From Cytidiella melzeri (Eukaryota; Basidiomycota; Agaricomycetes; Polyporales; Irpicaceae): DNA of 64,000 bases. The position numbers and the translations under genes are program-made. Below, one piece after another: positions 1,616 to 9,330 of this stretch. Below the pieces are notes generated by a model. That model had not been told where the DNA came from. It saw nothing but the letters and a program-made list of their open reading frames with translations, and searched no databases. The DNA lies in the NCBI GenBank assembly GCA_022592445.1, contig JABYQR010000168.1, positions 29,535 to 93,534 of the forward strand. Reading direction: 5' to 3'. The stretch's first letter is position 1, and the number at the start of each line of letters is the position of its first letter.

Positions 1616-2019
1616 ACACGTGATTACCTTCCTTGAGGTCTAGTGTGCTTATGCTTGGTCCCTCTGTGTCCAGGGAGTGTATTAGTGCTTCAACGTAAAA
1701 TGCAGATCATTAGATTTGAATTTGAACTTATGTGGGATTATTTACAATGGTGATAGCCATTTCACTTGCAAAATTATTGATAACAATGATCATATATCAT
1801 TTTGTGATTGGATACATACTGGTAGACATACCAAATACAAGTATGGAAAATGTTCAGTTGCATGATATATATGCTCTACCAATTAAACACTACCTATATT
1901 CAAGATGAACAACGCATTTATACCATGAAGTCTGGGACTTCAGAACTTGTATCTTGCCACTTGCTGGCCCTACTCCCGCAAGAGTGTATAGGTGTGCACT
2001 TCCTGGGGAAAACAGGTGT

Positions 2020-2245
2020 CAATGAAGAAGGATTGTTGCAGTGTTCACCAGCACATTGATGCTTTGTCAGATGTGGCCCTCTTGGCCCCCAAAGTGTGGG
2101 AATTTGATTATACATACCAACAGCAGCAGTTCTAATATCAAATCAATGAATACAGTCAATGGCATTAGCCTTGCTTTGTTATCATTCCTTGAAATCTGTA
2201 TCTGATCACTTTTTGATTTTTTACAGGCTGCACATGGGCCCGAAT
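2020..2245 (-). repeat. Dispersed repeat, right copy of the inverted pair
   Basis: It is the reverse complement of 80-342. Both copies carry a frame reading around QIP..WG and HQCAG. The family is unknown. Confidence 0.55.
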
Positions 2246-2669
2246 ATATGTAAGTGATCTGAACTCCAATGTCATAATTGTTATGCCAGTTTAATGAGAT
2301 ATTATCTCAGTCTTATAGAAGTATATATGCTGTTCCAAGCACTGTGCTAACCCGTGCCAGGGTTACAATATACACTAAGTATAATTCACTGGATAGCTCT
2401 ACCTTGCCCCAACATCCTGGTACAAACTAATTGTCAATTGGTGTAGAATTGAGCAGATTATAACCATTAAGCAAAAAATGTTGCCCAGACTCAGATTATA
2501 ACTCCACTCTTGTACTTCTTGTTGGCACATATATAAGATGATGTCAAATCTCGGCACAGTGATCAAATTTGTTGCAGACATGTACAGGAATCTACAAACA
2601 TTGATTTGAGAAAGAATTACCATCAGAACACAGCCTATTTGAGACATGTACAGCAATCCATAAACATTA

Positions 2670-2788
2670 GGGTGGTTCAGAGTTTGACTGTGTCACATCT
2701 TTGTGACTATGTAATGCAACAAGTGCCCCTCAGACCGGTTCCATAGCTGGTGCTGCAAGCTGCAAGCTGCACCAACTCTGAACGACCC
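2670..2788. mobile_element. MITE with TA target duplication
   Basis: The terminal inverted repeats GGGTGGTTCAGAGTT and AACTCTGAACGACCC differ at one position and are flanked by TA on each side (2668-2669 and 2789-2790). The 119-bp interior has no coding capacity. It includes a near palindrome built on GCTGCAAGCTGCAAGCTGC. The TA duplication points to a Tc1/mariner-type nonautonomous element. Confidence 0.75.
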
Positions 2789-3825
2789 TATTATTTAGTC
2801 TCTAAGCAGCCATTACCCATGTTTTGTGTGCTGATTCTAACAAGACATTTCCAATCCCTATAGCATGTAATTTTTATCTTGCATCAACAGTGGGCACTGC
2901 AATTGATTGTTTCACAAAGTGCCACAAACATTAGTTGCTTTATACAACAAGGTCACTATCAGAACACAGGACAAGGCAGTTCAGACATCAACAGGACACA
3001 TTTAACATGTTTTGGAAGTTGTTTTCAAAGATTTCTCCAACCCTTTTATTGTCAGAGTATGTAAACCATTCCTTTCATCAGCAGTGAGTGCTAATGAGCA
3101 CTGCAGCTGATGGTTGCATCAGCAGGAAACACTGCACAAGATTGATGATGATACATAAAGCCCCTTACTACCATTGGTGACTACCTGTATCAATGTACAC
3201 TTTCTTTGACTGCAACCAAAGTTTTCAATTGCAACACAGTTACTTATTTCCTTTCAGCTGCTTATCAAAGATGTCACCAATTGCTAATGCATTACCAAAG
3301 TCAATACCCATAACTAGATTACTTGGCGAGGTTATTTAACAGGAACAGAGTTGTTCATAACTCGTTTATTTGCTATCAGTAACATAATCACTCAGCAAAA
3401 TAGCTATTCTATACCAATTTACTTGGTCAAGCTGCTACCAGTAGCAAAGTCACTTGATAATCTGATTTAAAAGTACTATATCAATCCAATCTTCAGGGAT
3501 TGTACTTGCCACTTCCAAGCTCTGATGATGCTAGTGTTAGCCTCGAGTTCCAGCTCTGCCATTGATTCTTGCTACCTAAGTGGTTGCAGGTGATTATTGG
3601 TCCAAATTTTCAAGCTGCAGTGCTTTTACACCACCATCTTCATTAATACCCTTCTTTCAGTTCTACTCTGTGGGCTGTTTCAAATCACACATGAGGCAGA
3701 ACACAAAATCAGTAAACCAGCCTAACTTTTTGTAGTAAATGCAATGAGAGCCTTATCAGACCTCATCAATGTAGAAAATTAGGCATGGATCAAAGGGTTG
3801 TTGGTGCAAGTCACTTTTGCTATGA

Positions 3826-3833
3826 GCTTTCAG
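3826..3833. repeat. hAT target-site duplication, left copy
   Basis: GCTTTCAG occurs immediately outside the left TIR and again at 7785-7792 immediately outside the right TIR. An 8-bp duplication is the hallmark of hAT transposases. Confidence 0.9.
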
Positions 3834-4101
3834 TAAAGCATAGCACGGGTGCACCCGCGGATCAACCTGCACCTGTACCCGCAGGTATGTGGTGCAGCAA
3901 TCCTCCTACCCAGAACCACGCAGGTAAGTTAGCGCCGGGTACCTGACCCGCAGGTACAGGTACCCACCACATACGGGTCACCCACAGGTAGAATTCTGCT
4001 TACTCATTTAGGATATACATGTGGTAGCTAGGAGCCTGTTGAACAGACAGTAATTCTTAGACTATAGATAGCACTGACACTAGATACGCAAGAACAGTAA
4101 A

Positions 4102-4377
4102 CAGTAAAGCTGCATCCCAATCTTTCCTCCTCGCCGTTGTCACGTTTGCCCTCTCCACATCTGTAATCAACAGATTGGGGCGTTGTAGTGTCTCAAACAC
4201 GCTCGCGTTGCTCCCCTGGCACATCAGCACCGTCCCGTCCAGGTGCCGCTCTTGCGTGTGGTTCATGTCAACGGCGTACAGGATTGTGCCGGCTGAGGGC
4301 GAGCGGATCTTCCAGATTGTGCCTCTGAGAGGGTGTCCGGCATTGAAGGGGATGATCGTCAAGCCTTGGCATTTAGA
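4102..4377 (-). pseudogene. Captured fragment of CPSF100/CFT2 polyadenylation factor
   Basis: About 92 residues match the metallo-beta-lactamase/beta-CASP region of cleavage and polyadenylation specificity factor subunit 2. The family pattern GLTIIPFNAGH..GGTIWKI appears here as ..PLRGTIWKI. It is followed by LYAVDMNH..ERHLDG and by RPNLLITD and a basic RRK motif. No start, upstream or downstream CFT2 exons exist here. It is joined directly to the end of the kinase fragment and ends in an unrelated tail close to the left TIR. It is therefore an internal piece of a host gene carried by the hAT element, not a functional factor. Confidence 0.85.
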
Positions 4378-6393
4378 CCGTCCAGGAGTTCTTGAGGCTT
4401 TTCCAGGTTCTTCAACATGCCAATGGACATGAATGCCCAGGTATCCTGATAGAGTAATCACTAAGAGTAATGTATGCAACTATGAAAACCCTACTCACGC
4501 TTCAATAATTTTAGTTCTTGTATTTTTGGCCAGGAATCACTGCCACAGCGTTGGCATGATCCCAATTGCATAGGAGTCCTAGCGCTCTATACACCCCGTG
4601 CTTGTCCAACCCGTCCTCCAGCATAACGTTCCCCAAGCTGATGTCTCAATGCAGAATCTTGGATTGTGTCTCGTGCGCAGACTCAATCACTAACAGCACA
4701 AATTAGCCTCCAGATGAAGCACAAAGCGTTTGAAACAATGAACTTACCTGTGACGACATCACAAAACGCGGTCACATACTCCTTCAAGTTATTGGTTGAC
4801 TCTATGGGGTATGCGACCCGTTGCACAATTTGGTGATGAGTGTCGCGGAGCGACTGCTGCTATGCTGATAACCCTAAAAGGGGAGTGAAGTAGAGAGGAA
4901 GGGGGTGGATCTCCAACGACGACAACGAGGTCAAAGTCGATGATGAGCAGGCAAGCAGGCACTGGGGCCGGATACTGGCAGTGCAAATGACGAAGTTAAT
5001 AGCATGCTTATACTAGGTTACATTGAGTAACTCACCTGGCAGTGCAAATGACGAAGAGGTCAAGATGCAGAACCAGGGAGGGTAAGGGGTACTATATATA
5101 CTGTGTCTGGGTGGTCTGTGCACCAGTTCCCACACTAGGGACTGGAGTAACTGTGGGACTGGAGTAACAATAGAACAATAAGGAACCCGGGTAACTGTCA
5201 AAGACCGGGGTAACTGTCAAGGACCTGAGTAACTGTCAAGGACCTGAGTAACTGTCAAGGACCTGAGTAACTGTCGAGGACCAGGGTACGTAGAACAATA
5301 GAAATAGAACAATACAACAATAGAACAATAAGACCTGGGGGAATCCCTGGGGAATCCCCATCAATGGAAGAGGAACAATAGAACAATAGCCTAGGTTGAT
5401 CTGGAACCGCTCCAGACTGAGTCTAGGGTTTGGGTCTGGACTATTGATAAATAAGGCAGGATGTCACGTGACCCAGGTTAGGGTTAGGTCCGGTAACACT
5501 CCTAGCCGGGAAATAAGCGCTCTAGATAGGCGCCTAAGTCTGTAAACTTGTGAAAATATTGGAAAAATCCGGTCTCTGTTGGACTATCCATGTCAATGAG
5601 TGTGAACACGCAATATTGAATACCCAACAGGAAACATCTGGTAGGTCGTCCATGCCTCAGATCTTGTCATCTGTGCCTTCCCATCACTGCTCTTCACGTT
5701 ACCTCCACAAATCAACCGAGGCACATGTGGCACACCGTACTTCTCCAAGAGCTTGTAGACCTCGGTCTCGGTCTGTAGAAGGTGGTGGTTGACACGCCAC
5801 GTGTCCTTCAAGAACAACACAGTGTGGTCTTGCTCTTGGGAGACAGTGACGTATCCGTGTGTGGCATGACCAACAGTCGACGTGGACTTGAAGACGGGAC
5901 ACCTGACCAACAACTTCATGTTCCGTTTCTTGTCCTCCACCAACATCTCATAGACAGGATAGTTTCCGCTGAACGTGTCCTCGATCTTGGGCAGCTTGCA
6001 GCGCTCTTTCTTCCTGAACATGTCGATCACCTCCCTAAACACGTTCTCGTCTGTCTTGTCAGCCAACCAAGCAGTCGGATCCCATCCTTTGGCCTCGTCC
6101 GACATGTGATTGTGGCACCAAAAGAACTGTGCCAGAAGGAGGGGCTGCTCGATGTAGTTGAACAACTCGCTCACAATTGCTCCGGTGTGGTCCCAGTCAA
6201 CCCATCTTGTATCGTTAGTCATGTGGTATGCATAACCCCAGGCCTTGACTCGCTCCTTGACGCAGCGGCAGTTGTCAAGAATACCACTCAGGTAAGGGTT
6301 ACTGGTGATGAGTTGCGGCAAAGCCTGCCACTTGTAGGGAGGAGCAATGAGACGAGGACGGTCGGGCCGAACATTGGTTGGGCTAGGATTCGA
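4378..6393 (-). pseudogene. Captured FunK1-type protein kinase, broken
   Basis: Read on the minus strand, this is a fungal-type protein kinase (FunK1, PF17667). Its N-lobe side lies around 5601-6393 (VLFLKDTWR, FPVGYSILRV). The catalytic loop lies near 4640-4660 as LH*DISLGNVMLEDG, and FMSIGMLKN follows near 4400-4425 as in the FunK1 C-lobe. The arginine of the HRD motif is a TGA stop. Canonical introns are visible (GTAAGT...GTTAG near 4690-4748; GTGAGT near 4500). A solo LTR with 5-bp duplication splits it at 4841-5595, with the frame continuing exactly across it. It ends abruptly at the CFT2 fragment. Other frame breaks near 4510-4540 are likely. Confidence 0.85.
4841..5595 (-). mobile_element. 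Solo LTR, type A, complete
   Basis: This is a 755-bp LTR, TGACATGG...GCGACA on the minus strand. It is flanked by the perfect 5-bp duplication ATGAG (4836-4840 and 5596-5600). It is homologous over its length to the chromovirus LTR at 61508-62247, so it is the recombination scar of the same Ty3 family. It contains five 19-bp tandem repeats of the GTAACTGTCAAGGACCTGA type (about 5188-5282), a TATATATA box near 5091 and the repeat-flanked intron-like cassette. It interrupts the captured kinase. Confidence 0.95.
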
Positions 6394-6419
6394 CAGCTGG
6401 AAAGGATCTTGAGGCCATC

Positions 6420-7598
6420 CGAGAGAGGTATCAGAGGTCGTGTGAATCTCGAGCTGCGACCTGCATTGGAGAAATTATTTGGCATGGCTAAATGGGACAA
6501 GGACGGGAAGCAGGGGCTACAGCATCAGCGACTGTCTGTAAACGAGTGGGCTCTATTGAGTGAGCTTGGCGTGCTGCTGGGCGTAAGTACCATTTTCAGA
6601 TTATGATGCTACAACTAAGTCAGCCACCTGCAGGATTTTCTCGATGCAACAAACCACATATTGCAAACCAATACACCTCTCTTGCATGAAGTCATCCCGG
6701 TCATAGACATACTTACCGTGGCACTTGAAGACATGGCGGAGAACGTGTTTGCATCAGGTGCTGTCCGCTTGGCAGCTGCTCAAGGCCTTCAGGTGCTGAA
6801 CAAGTACTACTCCAAAACTGATGACTCTGTAATGTATCGCCTGCCATGAGTGAGTACCTTGAAGAGTCAGATGTTTCTTATTAGCTGTTTCTAACTGTGT
6901 TTTCCTTGCAGTGCTCCACCCTTGGTACAAGACGAAGTATTTCCGAGATATGAATTGGCCTTCTGAATGGATTTGCACGGCAGAGGACCTTCTGCGGGAG
7001 CAGTGGCAGAGCAACTATAGGCCCTCTGACCCAGCATTGGATAGCCGTGACGCCTTGCAACCAACGCTGGCAGTTCGGGCTGCTCCAGTACGTTTTCAAT
7101 ATTTGAGAGGACTTGGAATTGACTTGTTGGATCTTTCTGTAGCCTGGACATTGACGACCAAATGATCGCTTTGCAAAACTCGATCAATACGGGCAAAATA
7201 GCAATGCTATCAATGTTCTCGATGAATATCTTCAGTTGTTGTGCCTCATTGATGTCAACAATCCTTTGCAGCATTGGAATGGCATTCTAGTGTCCAGCAA
7301 CAATACGCACAAGCGAGCACTTGCGCAAATGGCCATTGACTTCTTGTCGGCACCGGCTTTGTCAACCGATGTTGAGCGTGCTTTCTTGTGCGGTGGCCTC
7401 ACTGTCTCAAAACGGCGTCATTCTCTGAACAATGAGTCTACTCGTGCTGCAACTGTTCTGAGTTCATGGGCTTCTATTCCGGGTGTCATACCTGAGGAGG
7501 AGATACTACAGGTCTTTCAAGATAAAAACAAACGGCCAAAGAAGGGCAAAGAGAAGGCTATTGCTGTAGATACTGATGTACATGTTGTCGAAGATTAA
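6420..7598 (+). pseudogene. hAT transposase, C-terminal half
   Basis: Spliced segments read as a hAT transposase. First comes an EWALLSELGVLLG segment, then PLLHEVIPVIDIL, then a YRLPMMLHPWYKTKYF join across a GTGAGT...TTGCAG intron. The dimerisation domain at 7262-7480 follows (NPLQHWN, ALAQMAIDFLSAPALS, DVERAFLCGG, RRHSLNNE). Introns at about 6582-6633 (GTAAGT...CTGCAG), 6850-6910 and 7089-7142 look canonical. One junction near 7143-7165 leaves the frame unclear. The RNase H-like N-terminal region with the first catalytic aspartates is not seen; kinase and CFT2 fragments occupy that part of the element. Confidence 0.8.
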
Positions 7599-7784
7599 AT
7601 TCTTTCTTTCTTTTGCTTACCCGCAGGTTGACCCGCAGGTATCATACTTCTCAGATGGCTGACCCACACCTGTAGCTAACCTGCACCACAGGTATGTGCT
7701 ACCCATGAGTCAATATACCCGTGGGTTGTTGTGAGGGTTAACCTATGAGTACCTATAGGTAACCTGCACCCGTGCTATGCTTTA

Positions 7785-7792
7785 GCTTTCAG
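7785..7792. repeat. hAT target-site duplication, right copy
   Basis: GCTTTCAG, identical to 3826-3833. Confidence 0.9.
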
Positions 7793-8208
7793 ATGCAAAT
7801 TATGTTGCTAATATAGATTGATGTTAAGGCTGTGTACACTACTAGCCTGTGGCGGTGTAAACATGGACCAATGTGAACCACATTCAGTATCAAAAAAAGA
7901 TTGTGGCACAAATGCACTGCAGCTTGAAACTTGATCTAAAATTTCAACAGTCAAAGGACACAGCCTGAATCAGGTCAGAGGGTTTCCCTGTATGAGCACA
8001 GCACATGGAACCACAATGTATATAAAGTCCATGGCTACTCAGCTACTAAGACCCCTACCTCCAAGTATTTTCCCTTTTCATTGCTTCAGCGCTGGCCGGT
8101 AAGCAGATCATTGTAGCTTACACCTTGGGTTGTTGTGTTCAAATTCTTCTTCAATACAGCTTACAGTCTCTTCAAACACCCTTCCACATTCAATATTTTT
8201 GCCTTGTC
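7793..8208 (+). promoter_or_regulatory. Promoter and 5' leader of secreted-protein copy 1
   Basis: This is homologous to 11.5-11.8 kb upstream of the intact paralogue. It has TATATAAAG near 8019-8028 (TATAAAG in copy 2) and the shared block CAGCGCTGG.CGGTAAG, which starts a 5'-UTR intron ending in a CAG-type acceptor before the ATG. The distal promoter continues on the other side of the hAT insertion (about 3560-3833), so the transposon separated promoter parts by nearly 4 kb. Confidence 0.6.
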
Positions 8209-8889
8209 ATGCACTTCTCGACCGTGCTGTTCGCCGCCATTGTCACCGGCGTGATCCAGATTGCGACTGTATCTGCCATCCCGTACAGCCGCTATTCCCC
8301 TGATAGCGGCCTCTATTCCCACTATATATTACAAATAAAAGATAGTATTATTACTACTATTATTGCCCACAACAATATTAGTGCCCAATATGGTAATCCC
8401 CTGCCACTTCCTATTTTTCCCCTCTTGCTGTGTCCGCTCCAACGCACTTCTTGCCATCACCTCCAACTTGTCCTCGCCCTTGTTGCCCTCCTCCTCGCCA
8501 CTCATTGTTTAGTACACACTTGTGGCCTGGTACCGATTTGACACGCCTGTGGCGTAGTCAAAAACCGCATTGAGCAGTCTGACGACACTCATTCGCTGAC
8601 CGGACGCAAAGGAGGTCTTGTGGGGTAGGATTCGGATAGGATTGTGCAGGTTTTGGACTGCAGGTATGTCACCTTCTCATCTTCAGCCCTTGCCACGCTT
8701 TACCTAGCCACGCAGCTGAGCCCCAGTTGCACCCACTTGAACGGTAAGTTGTGTCAGTCATCTTTCTCATCTCCCTTTCTCCGTACAACATGTCTGTGGG
8801 AAGGTGCGAGAACGAGCGGCCGCAGAGTTACACAACACTTAAGCCGTCTCACTCAATCCAGCTGCAGATGTGTCTGTCATCATTGGTTA

Positions 8890-9062
8890 CAACAGTGAGT
8901 TGTCGTTGCCCTCACCCTCGCCCTTGTTGTTGCCCTTGCCCTTGCCCTTGTTGCCCTCTTGCCCTTGCCTGTTGTTGCCCTCTTGCCCTTGCCTGTTGTT
9001 GCCCTTGCCCTTGCCCTTGTTGCCCTCTTGCCCTTGTTGCCCTTGTTGCCCTCTTGCCCTTG

Positions 9063-9103
<41 letters not shown>

Positions 9104-9330
9104 TCCCTCTCCCTTGTTGCCCTCTCCCTTGTTGCCCTCGTTGTTGCCCTTGCCCTCTCCCTTGTTGTTGCCCTTGCCCTCATTGTTGCCCTTGCCCTTG
9201 ACTGCTATCACTCTCGCTTTTGCCTTTTCTCTCGCCCTCTCCCTTCCATGTCCTCGCCCTCAGCGTTTCTTGTCCTTGCCCTCTCCCTTTCGCACCTTTG
9301 CCCTTGCTGTTGCTCTCGGCCTCACCCTCA
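8890..9330. repeat. CCCTTG / CCCTCA hexanucleotide microsatellite
   Basis: The stretch consists of variants of TTGCCC, CCCTTG and CCCTCA, with about eight near-perfect CCCTCA units around 9062-9105. All six frames stay open because stop codons cannot form easily, so long Leu/Pro or Arg/Gly frames appear on both strands. These should not be annotated as genes. Confidence 0.9.

Follow-up and report, generated by a model that had tools for sequence, protein, structure and literature searches.

Host gene fragments in a hAT transposon family of the basidiomycete Cytidiella melzeri: likely repeated capture during DNA repair

Three host gene pieces in one hAT element

A hAT element of 3,951 bp (positions 3834-7784) lies in the window, by which we mean the whole analysed stretch of 64,000 nucleotides of the Cytidiella melzeri genome (assembly GCA_022592445.1, contig JABYQR010000168.1, positions 29,535 to 93,534; working label of the contig: C77). 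The element carries pieces of three host genes, namely CFT2, a FunK1 kinase gene and a heparinase-like gene, and it belongs to a family that likely picked up host genes repeatedly during the repair of its own broken DNA. It is bounded by two 20-bp terminal inverted repeats (TIRs; 3834-3853 on the plus strand and 7765-7784 on the minus strand) that are complementary in 20 of 20 positions, and it is flanked by an 8-bp target-site duplication (TSD), gctttcag, at 3826-3833 and 7785-7792, both as predicted originally. Short TIRs, an 8-bp TSD and a transposase with a C-terminal dimerisation region characterise the hAT superfamily, and all of these were found. Helitrons have neither TIRs nor a target duplication, and the window element has both.

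Relatives and donors were searched for in the own assembly of the species (49.7 Mb, 731 contigs), and the fragment borders inside the element were set by alignment to the donor loci. A family-wide left end region, delimited by genome matches and alignment (3834-4102, plus strand), is followed on the minus strand by the CFT2/CPSF100 fragment (4103-4374), which is 93.8% identical to its donor at C113:222394-222665 and matches Pfam Lactamase_B_6 (E 1.2e-17); the donor piece matches PDB chains labelled CPSF subunit 2 and Protein CFT2. The FunK1 kinase fragment comes next, also on the minus strand, with its 3' part at 4375-4843 (two inferred introns kept; 89-90% to the donor, C301/C52) and its 5' part at 5596-6196 (94% to the same donor; Pfam PF17667, E 2.5e-9 for the fragment). 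It is followed at 6197-6447, again on the minus strand, by a fragment whose donor on C60 (93.5-94.3%) is called heparinase II/III-like after a weak Pfam match below the curated cut-off. The plus strand then holds the C-terminal remnant of the hAT transposase gene, recognised by Pfam and alignment (6448-7598, with the dimerisation domain in 7236-7598), and the family-wide right end region (7599-7784; genome matches). CFT2 and FunK1 are thus in sense on the strand opposite the dimerisation domain, and the originally proposed identities, strand and presence of parents in the genome are borne out by the Pfam and PDB matches and by the donors on C113 (94%) and C301/C52 (89-94% by part). The count of two captured genes was too low, since the heparinase-like piece is a third.

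The FunK1 fragment is interrupted by a nested, non-autonomous insert of 752 bp with a 19-bp minisatellite (4844-5595). A separate 8-bp duplication, ATGAGTGT, flanks the insert (4836-4843 and 5596-5603), and the uncut FunK1 site without the insert is visible in a second copy of the element, on C61. Relatives of the insert were found in the hAT-family copies C570, C258 and C428, and also on C137, C588, C241 and C250. The prediction that the fragments are fused end to end holds insofar as CFT2 and FunK1 adjoin at 4374/4375; their join is out of frame, and FunK1 itself is split by the insert. The open frame of 293 codons on the minus strand (5593-6474), formerly read as FunK1 alone, proves to be a fusion of the heparinase-like piece with FunK1, joined in frame, whose stop codon falls within the nested insert. 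Within the heparinase-like piece, parts of the donor are joined at 6289/6290 across an 81-bp gap. A lost intron was considered for this gap and rejected, as the donor translation is coding there; it is an in-frame coding deletion.

The three pieces have their donors elsewhere in the genome, on contigs C113, C301/C52 and C60, and C61 has the same CFT2, FunK1 and heparinase joins as the window. Because of these elsewhere-placed donors and shared joins, the gene capture is neither chance similarity nor a single assembly error. The window element is also one element with one pair of TIRs, as first proposed: C61 and six further copies read end to end share both ends, each with its own TSD. No paralogous empty site was found in the own genome, where the left flank gave only short matches, at C715 and C22. 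Outside the element, inverted repeats at 3596-3640 and 7856-7932 match at 83% over 36 nt, which suggests that the element may have landed within an older TIR element.

The element family and its layers of captured genes

The family has at least 19 left ends and at least 20 right ends on 25 contigs including that of the window, so that the copies expected elsewhere are present on 24 further contigs, a lower bound. Eight copies (the window's and seven others) were read end to end, and their TSDs are exact in seven cases and agree in seven of eight bases in one. CFT2-derived DNA is present in 13 of the 19 copies examined for content, some of them only partly read. The remaining six are copies with a shortened left end (C48, C250, C231) and diverged relatives (C50, C180, C457); the content map leaves out the diverged left end on C148 and the contigs with a right end only (C137, C218, C588, C305 and C197). 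On C48 the left end is interrupted by an abundant repeat with more than 35 near-full-length matches (L013, from C48:36468 onward). The C48 interior had been tried as a further capture and was rejected, being this other repeat.

The copy on C61 (C61:1522-7062; 5,541 bp; own duplication GAACATAA) is the key to the history of the window copy. It carries the same three-gene block upstream of a whole transposase-coding region, and this region aligns with that of C154 over 3,386 bp at 96.8%. Positions 1875-4222 of the C61 element are absent from the window copy, which joins position 1832 of the heparinase-like donor (L063) to transposase sequence with one base shared. Since in C61 the block adjoins the whole region, the transposase N-terminus was most likely lost secondarily from the window copy, and this copy would be an internally deleted relative of a C61-type element. 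The earlier idea that the captured genes took the place of the N-terminus is therefore not upheld. The dimerisation region (PF05699) is recognised in the window (E 2.3e-6) and in the C154 frame (E 1.2e-10); the transposase N-terminal frame gave no Pfam match above the cut-off, and the middle frame no PDB match. Six of the eight end-to-end copies keep the transposase region (C61, C154, C474, C711, C570 and C496). Open frames were listed for five of these, all but C496, and the lists by themselves show no copy to be intact.

Other copies hold other genes next to CFT2. The combination with FunK1 and the heparinase-like piece is found in C61 and the window; CFT2 with a zinc-finger piece (donor C29) in C154, C474 and C241; CFT2 with EMC4 (donor C14) and the zinc finger in C711 and C728; and CFT2 with a homeobox piece (donor C40) and a 35-bp zinc-finger remnant in C570, C496 and C211. 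CFT2 and homeobox are also combined in a shortened copy, C346, and the partly read C428 has homeobox, zinc finger and CFT2. The widest CFT2 span is that of C258, together with a further host sequence of 431 bp (L009:540-970) that is 96% identical to C223 and C111. The names of these pieces differ in strength: EMC4 is firmly recognised by Pfam (E 7.6e-38), and the zinc-finger match is weak and lies below the curated cut-off (E 0.0075). Neither the C258 fragment nor the homeobox donor frame received a name from Pfam, the homeobox label being taken from the annotation of one homologue. The named best homologues of the homeobox donor are in the Polyporales Irpex rosettiformis (54%) and Hermanssonia centrifuga, with further names from Trametopsis, Phanerochaete, Phlebiopsis, Pleurotus and Grifola.

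The 431-bp sequence in C258 is apparently coding on the transposase strand. Six of the seven donors are oriented alike, the seventh (C258) being judged by open frames only (two-sided binomial P 0.125); a one-orientation rule that fitted the first six of six was dropped once the C258 donor appeared, by its open frames, to be opposite. C113 holds two CFT2 paralogues, L045 and L052, about 15 kb apart and 82% identical over 1.1 kb. Part of the CFT2 sequence in C258 is closer to the second paralogue, and both appear to have served as donors.

The later pieces are flanked on both sides by CFT2 sequence, and in two of the groups a shortened zinc-finger piece directly adjoins them. Because of this nesting and abutment, the arrangement suggests a capture order in which CFT2 would have come first, then the zinc finger, and then EMC4 or homeobox. 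The FunK1 and heparinase-like pieces are inside CFT2 as well, and could have been added before or after the zinc finger. On a tree of the right ends the capture groups cluster, with four changes as the minimum, a number as low as which was reached in none of 200 shuffles. The joins, read by eye, mostly share about 0-5 bp, some contain short fillers, and one join within CFT2 has an imperfect overlap of up to 16 bases.

Templates and fate of the captured pieces

Six introns lie wholly within captured stretches; five are kept and one is exactly missing. The kept ones, inferred from GT-AG signals and reading frames, are two in FunK1, one in EMC4 and two in CFT2. The alignment of the C61 FunK1 piece with its donor is gap-free across 1,062 bases and takes in both introns, and the EMC4 piece of C711 retains its intron. 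One CFT2 intron is kept in C258 and another, with an altered 5' splice site, in C154. The heparinase-like piece, in turn, seems to contain an intron end. Since introns are kept, the FunK1, EMC4, CFT2 and heparinase-like pieces were most likely copied from genomic DNA. Two gaps in CFT2 (2370-2516 and 2356-2537 in L045) were considered as lost introns and rejected, their joins missing the splice sites.

The homeobox piece is different in that all three copies spanning the site (C570, C496 and C211) lack exactly the 62-bp GC-AG intron of the donor. This intron is taken as real because the homologous protein of Irpex rosettiformis runs continuously through the exon junction. If deletions with at least 3 bp of microhomology arose at random, this exact interval would be one of 7,090 options, or one of 422 if only deletions of 50-80 bp are counted; given about six internal deletions in the captured pieces (counted by eye), the chance of an exact intron loss is about 0.1-1.5 percent. 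A spliced template is the better reading for this piece, although CAG stands at both intron borders, for which reason end joining could have mimicked splicing.

Compared with C301, the FunK1 piece of the window shows 88 differences over 1,062 bases, and 39 of 77 CpG sites are gone from it; that of C61 has 60 differences and 19 lost CpG sites. Such a pattern would fit methylated, silenced DNA. The FunK1 exon is free of stops over 229 codons in both copies, which is within chance (P 0.18 for the window, 0.47 for C61), and dN/dS is 0.45 (C301-C61) and 0.54 (C301-window), compared with 0.16 for the pair of FunK1 donors. A stop is present in the next FunK1 exon of the window, and another near the start of the fusion frame in C61. 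Selection on a chimeric protein was accordingly not detected in the FunK1 pieces of the window and C61 by dN/dS and stop counts, and selection on the chimeric frame was rejected as an explanation.

Competing explanations and known systems

We consider it highly probable that the window element is a three-gene hAT, likely an internally deleted relative of C61, and that its pieces were probably copied in during break repair. A CFT2 piece would first have entered an early copy, in the spacer that separates the left end from the transposase. Later breaks in this dispensable spacer may have been repaired by template switching, by which the zinc-finger, EMC4, homeobox, FunK1 and heparinase-like pieces would have been added in different lineages, mostly from genomic DNA and possibly from a spliced transcript for homeobox. 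The enlarged elements would then have been spread by the transposase. From the window copy some 2.35 kb would have disappeared, with them the N-terminal half of the transposase, and because of this loss it could be mobile only if another copy supplies the enzyme. The wider proposal, that one basidiomycete hAT family acts as a gene-collecting platform with a CFT2 spacer on which at least five later genes were stacked from DNA and RNA templates, has in our view somewhat less than an even chance. Several observations speak against the repair scenario. On the right-end tree several capture groups are weakly supported (22/0 for the FunK1 group), and the C154/C474 pair requires two changes. The join of the hAT left end to CFT2 uses, to within about 2 bp, one and the same hAT base in C258 and the other copies, while the CFT2 positions at that join differ (4 in C258 and 1501 in the others, in L045), which a single capture followed by deletion does not explain neatly. 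Furthermore, C61 has a stop where C154 continues and C154 requires a frame change unlike C61, and the donors are putative genes, known from their sequence.

The label Pack-hAT, given to the element originally, is right in so far as a hAT has captured genes, but fails if Pack-TYPE is taken strictly. It would then denote a non-autonomous element whose interior was exchanged for host genes, here with the fragments standing at the place of the transposase N-terminus. Such a look is offered by the window copy alone, where the N-terminal half is absent, and host coding DNA from three donors on different contigs does lie between its TIRs. This explanation is nevertheless improbable, as the window keeps half of the transposase and C61 the full region, and as C61 has the same block beside that region, unless C61 is itself a recombinant. 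That spliced transcripts (cDNA) would be the general capture route of the family, as with histone H3 in ascomycete hATs, is very improbable: the homeobox piece, with its exact intron loss in three of three copies and the low odds of such a deletion, points that way, yet five inferred introns are kept, the heparinase-like intron end is apparently present, and the CAG at both homeobox borders leaves room for end joining.

Similarly, the captured block might have been selected as a chimeric gene or, as the original prediction had it, be a source of regulatory antisense RNA against the donors. The in-frame heparinase-FunK1 join, the 81-bp deletion that keeps the frame, the stop-free FunK1 codons of both copies and the prevailing donor orientation would suit this idea. 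The lack of stops is expected by chance, however, the orientation bias is not significant, both copies have stops elsewhere in the block, CFT2 and FunK1 are joined out of frame, and the CpG loss of the window copy is as in silenced DNA, so that we regard such a role as quite improbable. That the composite is only apparent, produced by two or more adjacent elements or by misassembly, is hardly conceivable; the nested insert and the outer inverted repeats of a possible older element could give that impression, and against it stand the perfect TIR pair, the matching TSD and the identical joins on an independent contig.

Gene capture by fungal hATs has been published for ascomycetes, and the comparisons made here are with excerpts of the cited papers. 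A hAT of Pyrenophora tritici-repentis carries histone H3 and has a form of about 5.6 kb with a full-length transposase (PMC3538342). It resembles the present family in combining a captured gene with a transposase and in having a shorter, recombinant form with the dimerisation domain retained; the excerpt describes one named gene and one open reading frame of unassigned function, whereas the window copy has three genes and the family six named genes and one further sequence, in layers. The H3-hATs of Pseudocercospora and relatives (PMC6710886) likewise have TIRs of about 20 bp, an 8-bp TSD and a housekeeping gene in many copies, and the amplification of a captured gene along with the element, typical of this transduplication, is also seen here. 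Their gene is described as single, intron-less, transcript-derived and RIP-mutated, in contrast to the many donors, mostly kept introns and CpG decay of the Cytidiella family.

Plant Pack-TYPE elements, including Pack-hATs, also hold host coding fragments between hAT TIRs; they are defined as lacking transposase matches (PMC8903248), unlike the Cytidiella family with its persisting transposase region in six of eight end-to-end copies. Animal Pack-TIRs (PMC8277862) and the gene filler of maize Ds2/Ds-l4 (PMC3260210), which includes introns, are hAT-class captures of gene fragments attributed to gap filling, template switching or repair errors. A single donor per element is described there, and successive donors nested in an older piece are found in Cytidiella. 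Among Agaricomycetes, the Helitrons of Pleurotus (PMC4289320) carry host gene fragments as well but, unlike the Cytidiella element with its TIRs and 8-bp TSD, are rolling-circle elements. Other fungal DNA transposons are described as encoding a TET/JBP dioxygenase (PMC12730594).

Serial multi-gene capture by a basidiomycete hAT was not found in the titles and abstract openings of the top-ranked open-licence papers listed, which does not prove its absence. The originally claimed novelty of the capture stands in part: that one basidiomycete hAT family captures genes serially and in layers would be a new form of a known process, whereas single-gene capture by fungal hATs (PMC3538342, PMC6710886) and Pack-TIR capture in plants and animals are known. 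With this family, gene capture by fungal hATs, so far a matter of one gene in ascomycetes, is extended to a basidiomycete and to serial events. Gap filling, template switching and transcript capture are the debated routes by which cut-and-paste transposons obtain host genes. In the Cytidiella genome the donors are present alongside the elements, every join is legible to the base and the capture layers coexist, so that capture order and kind of template become directly testable. In the surroundings of the window element, about 1.1 kb to its right, lies a low-complexity run of short repeats (8887-9211) that is open in several frames.

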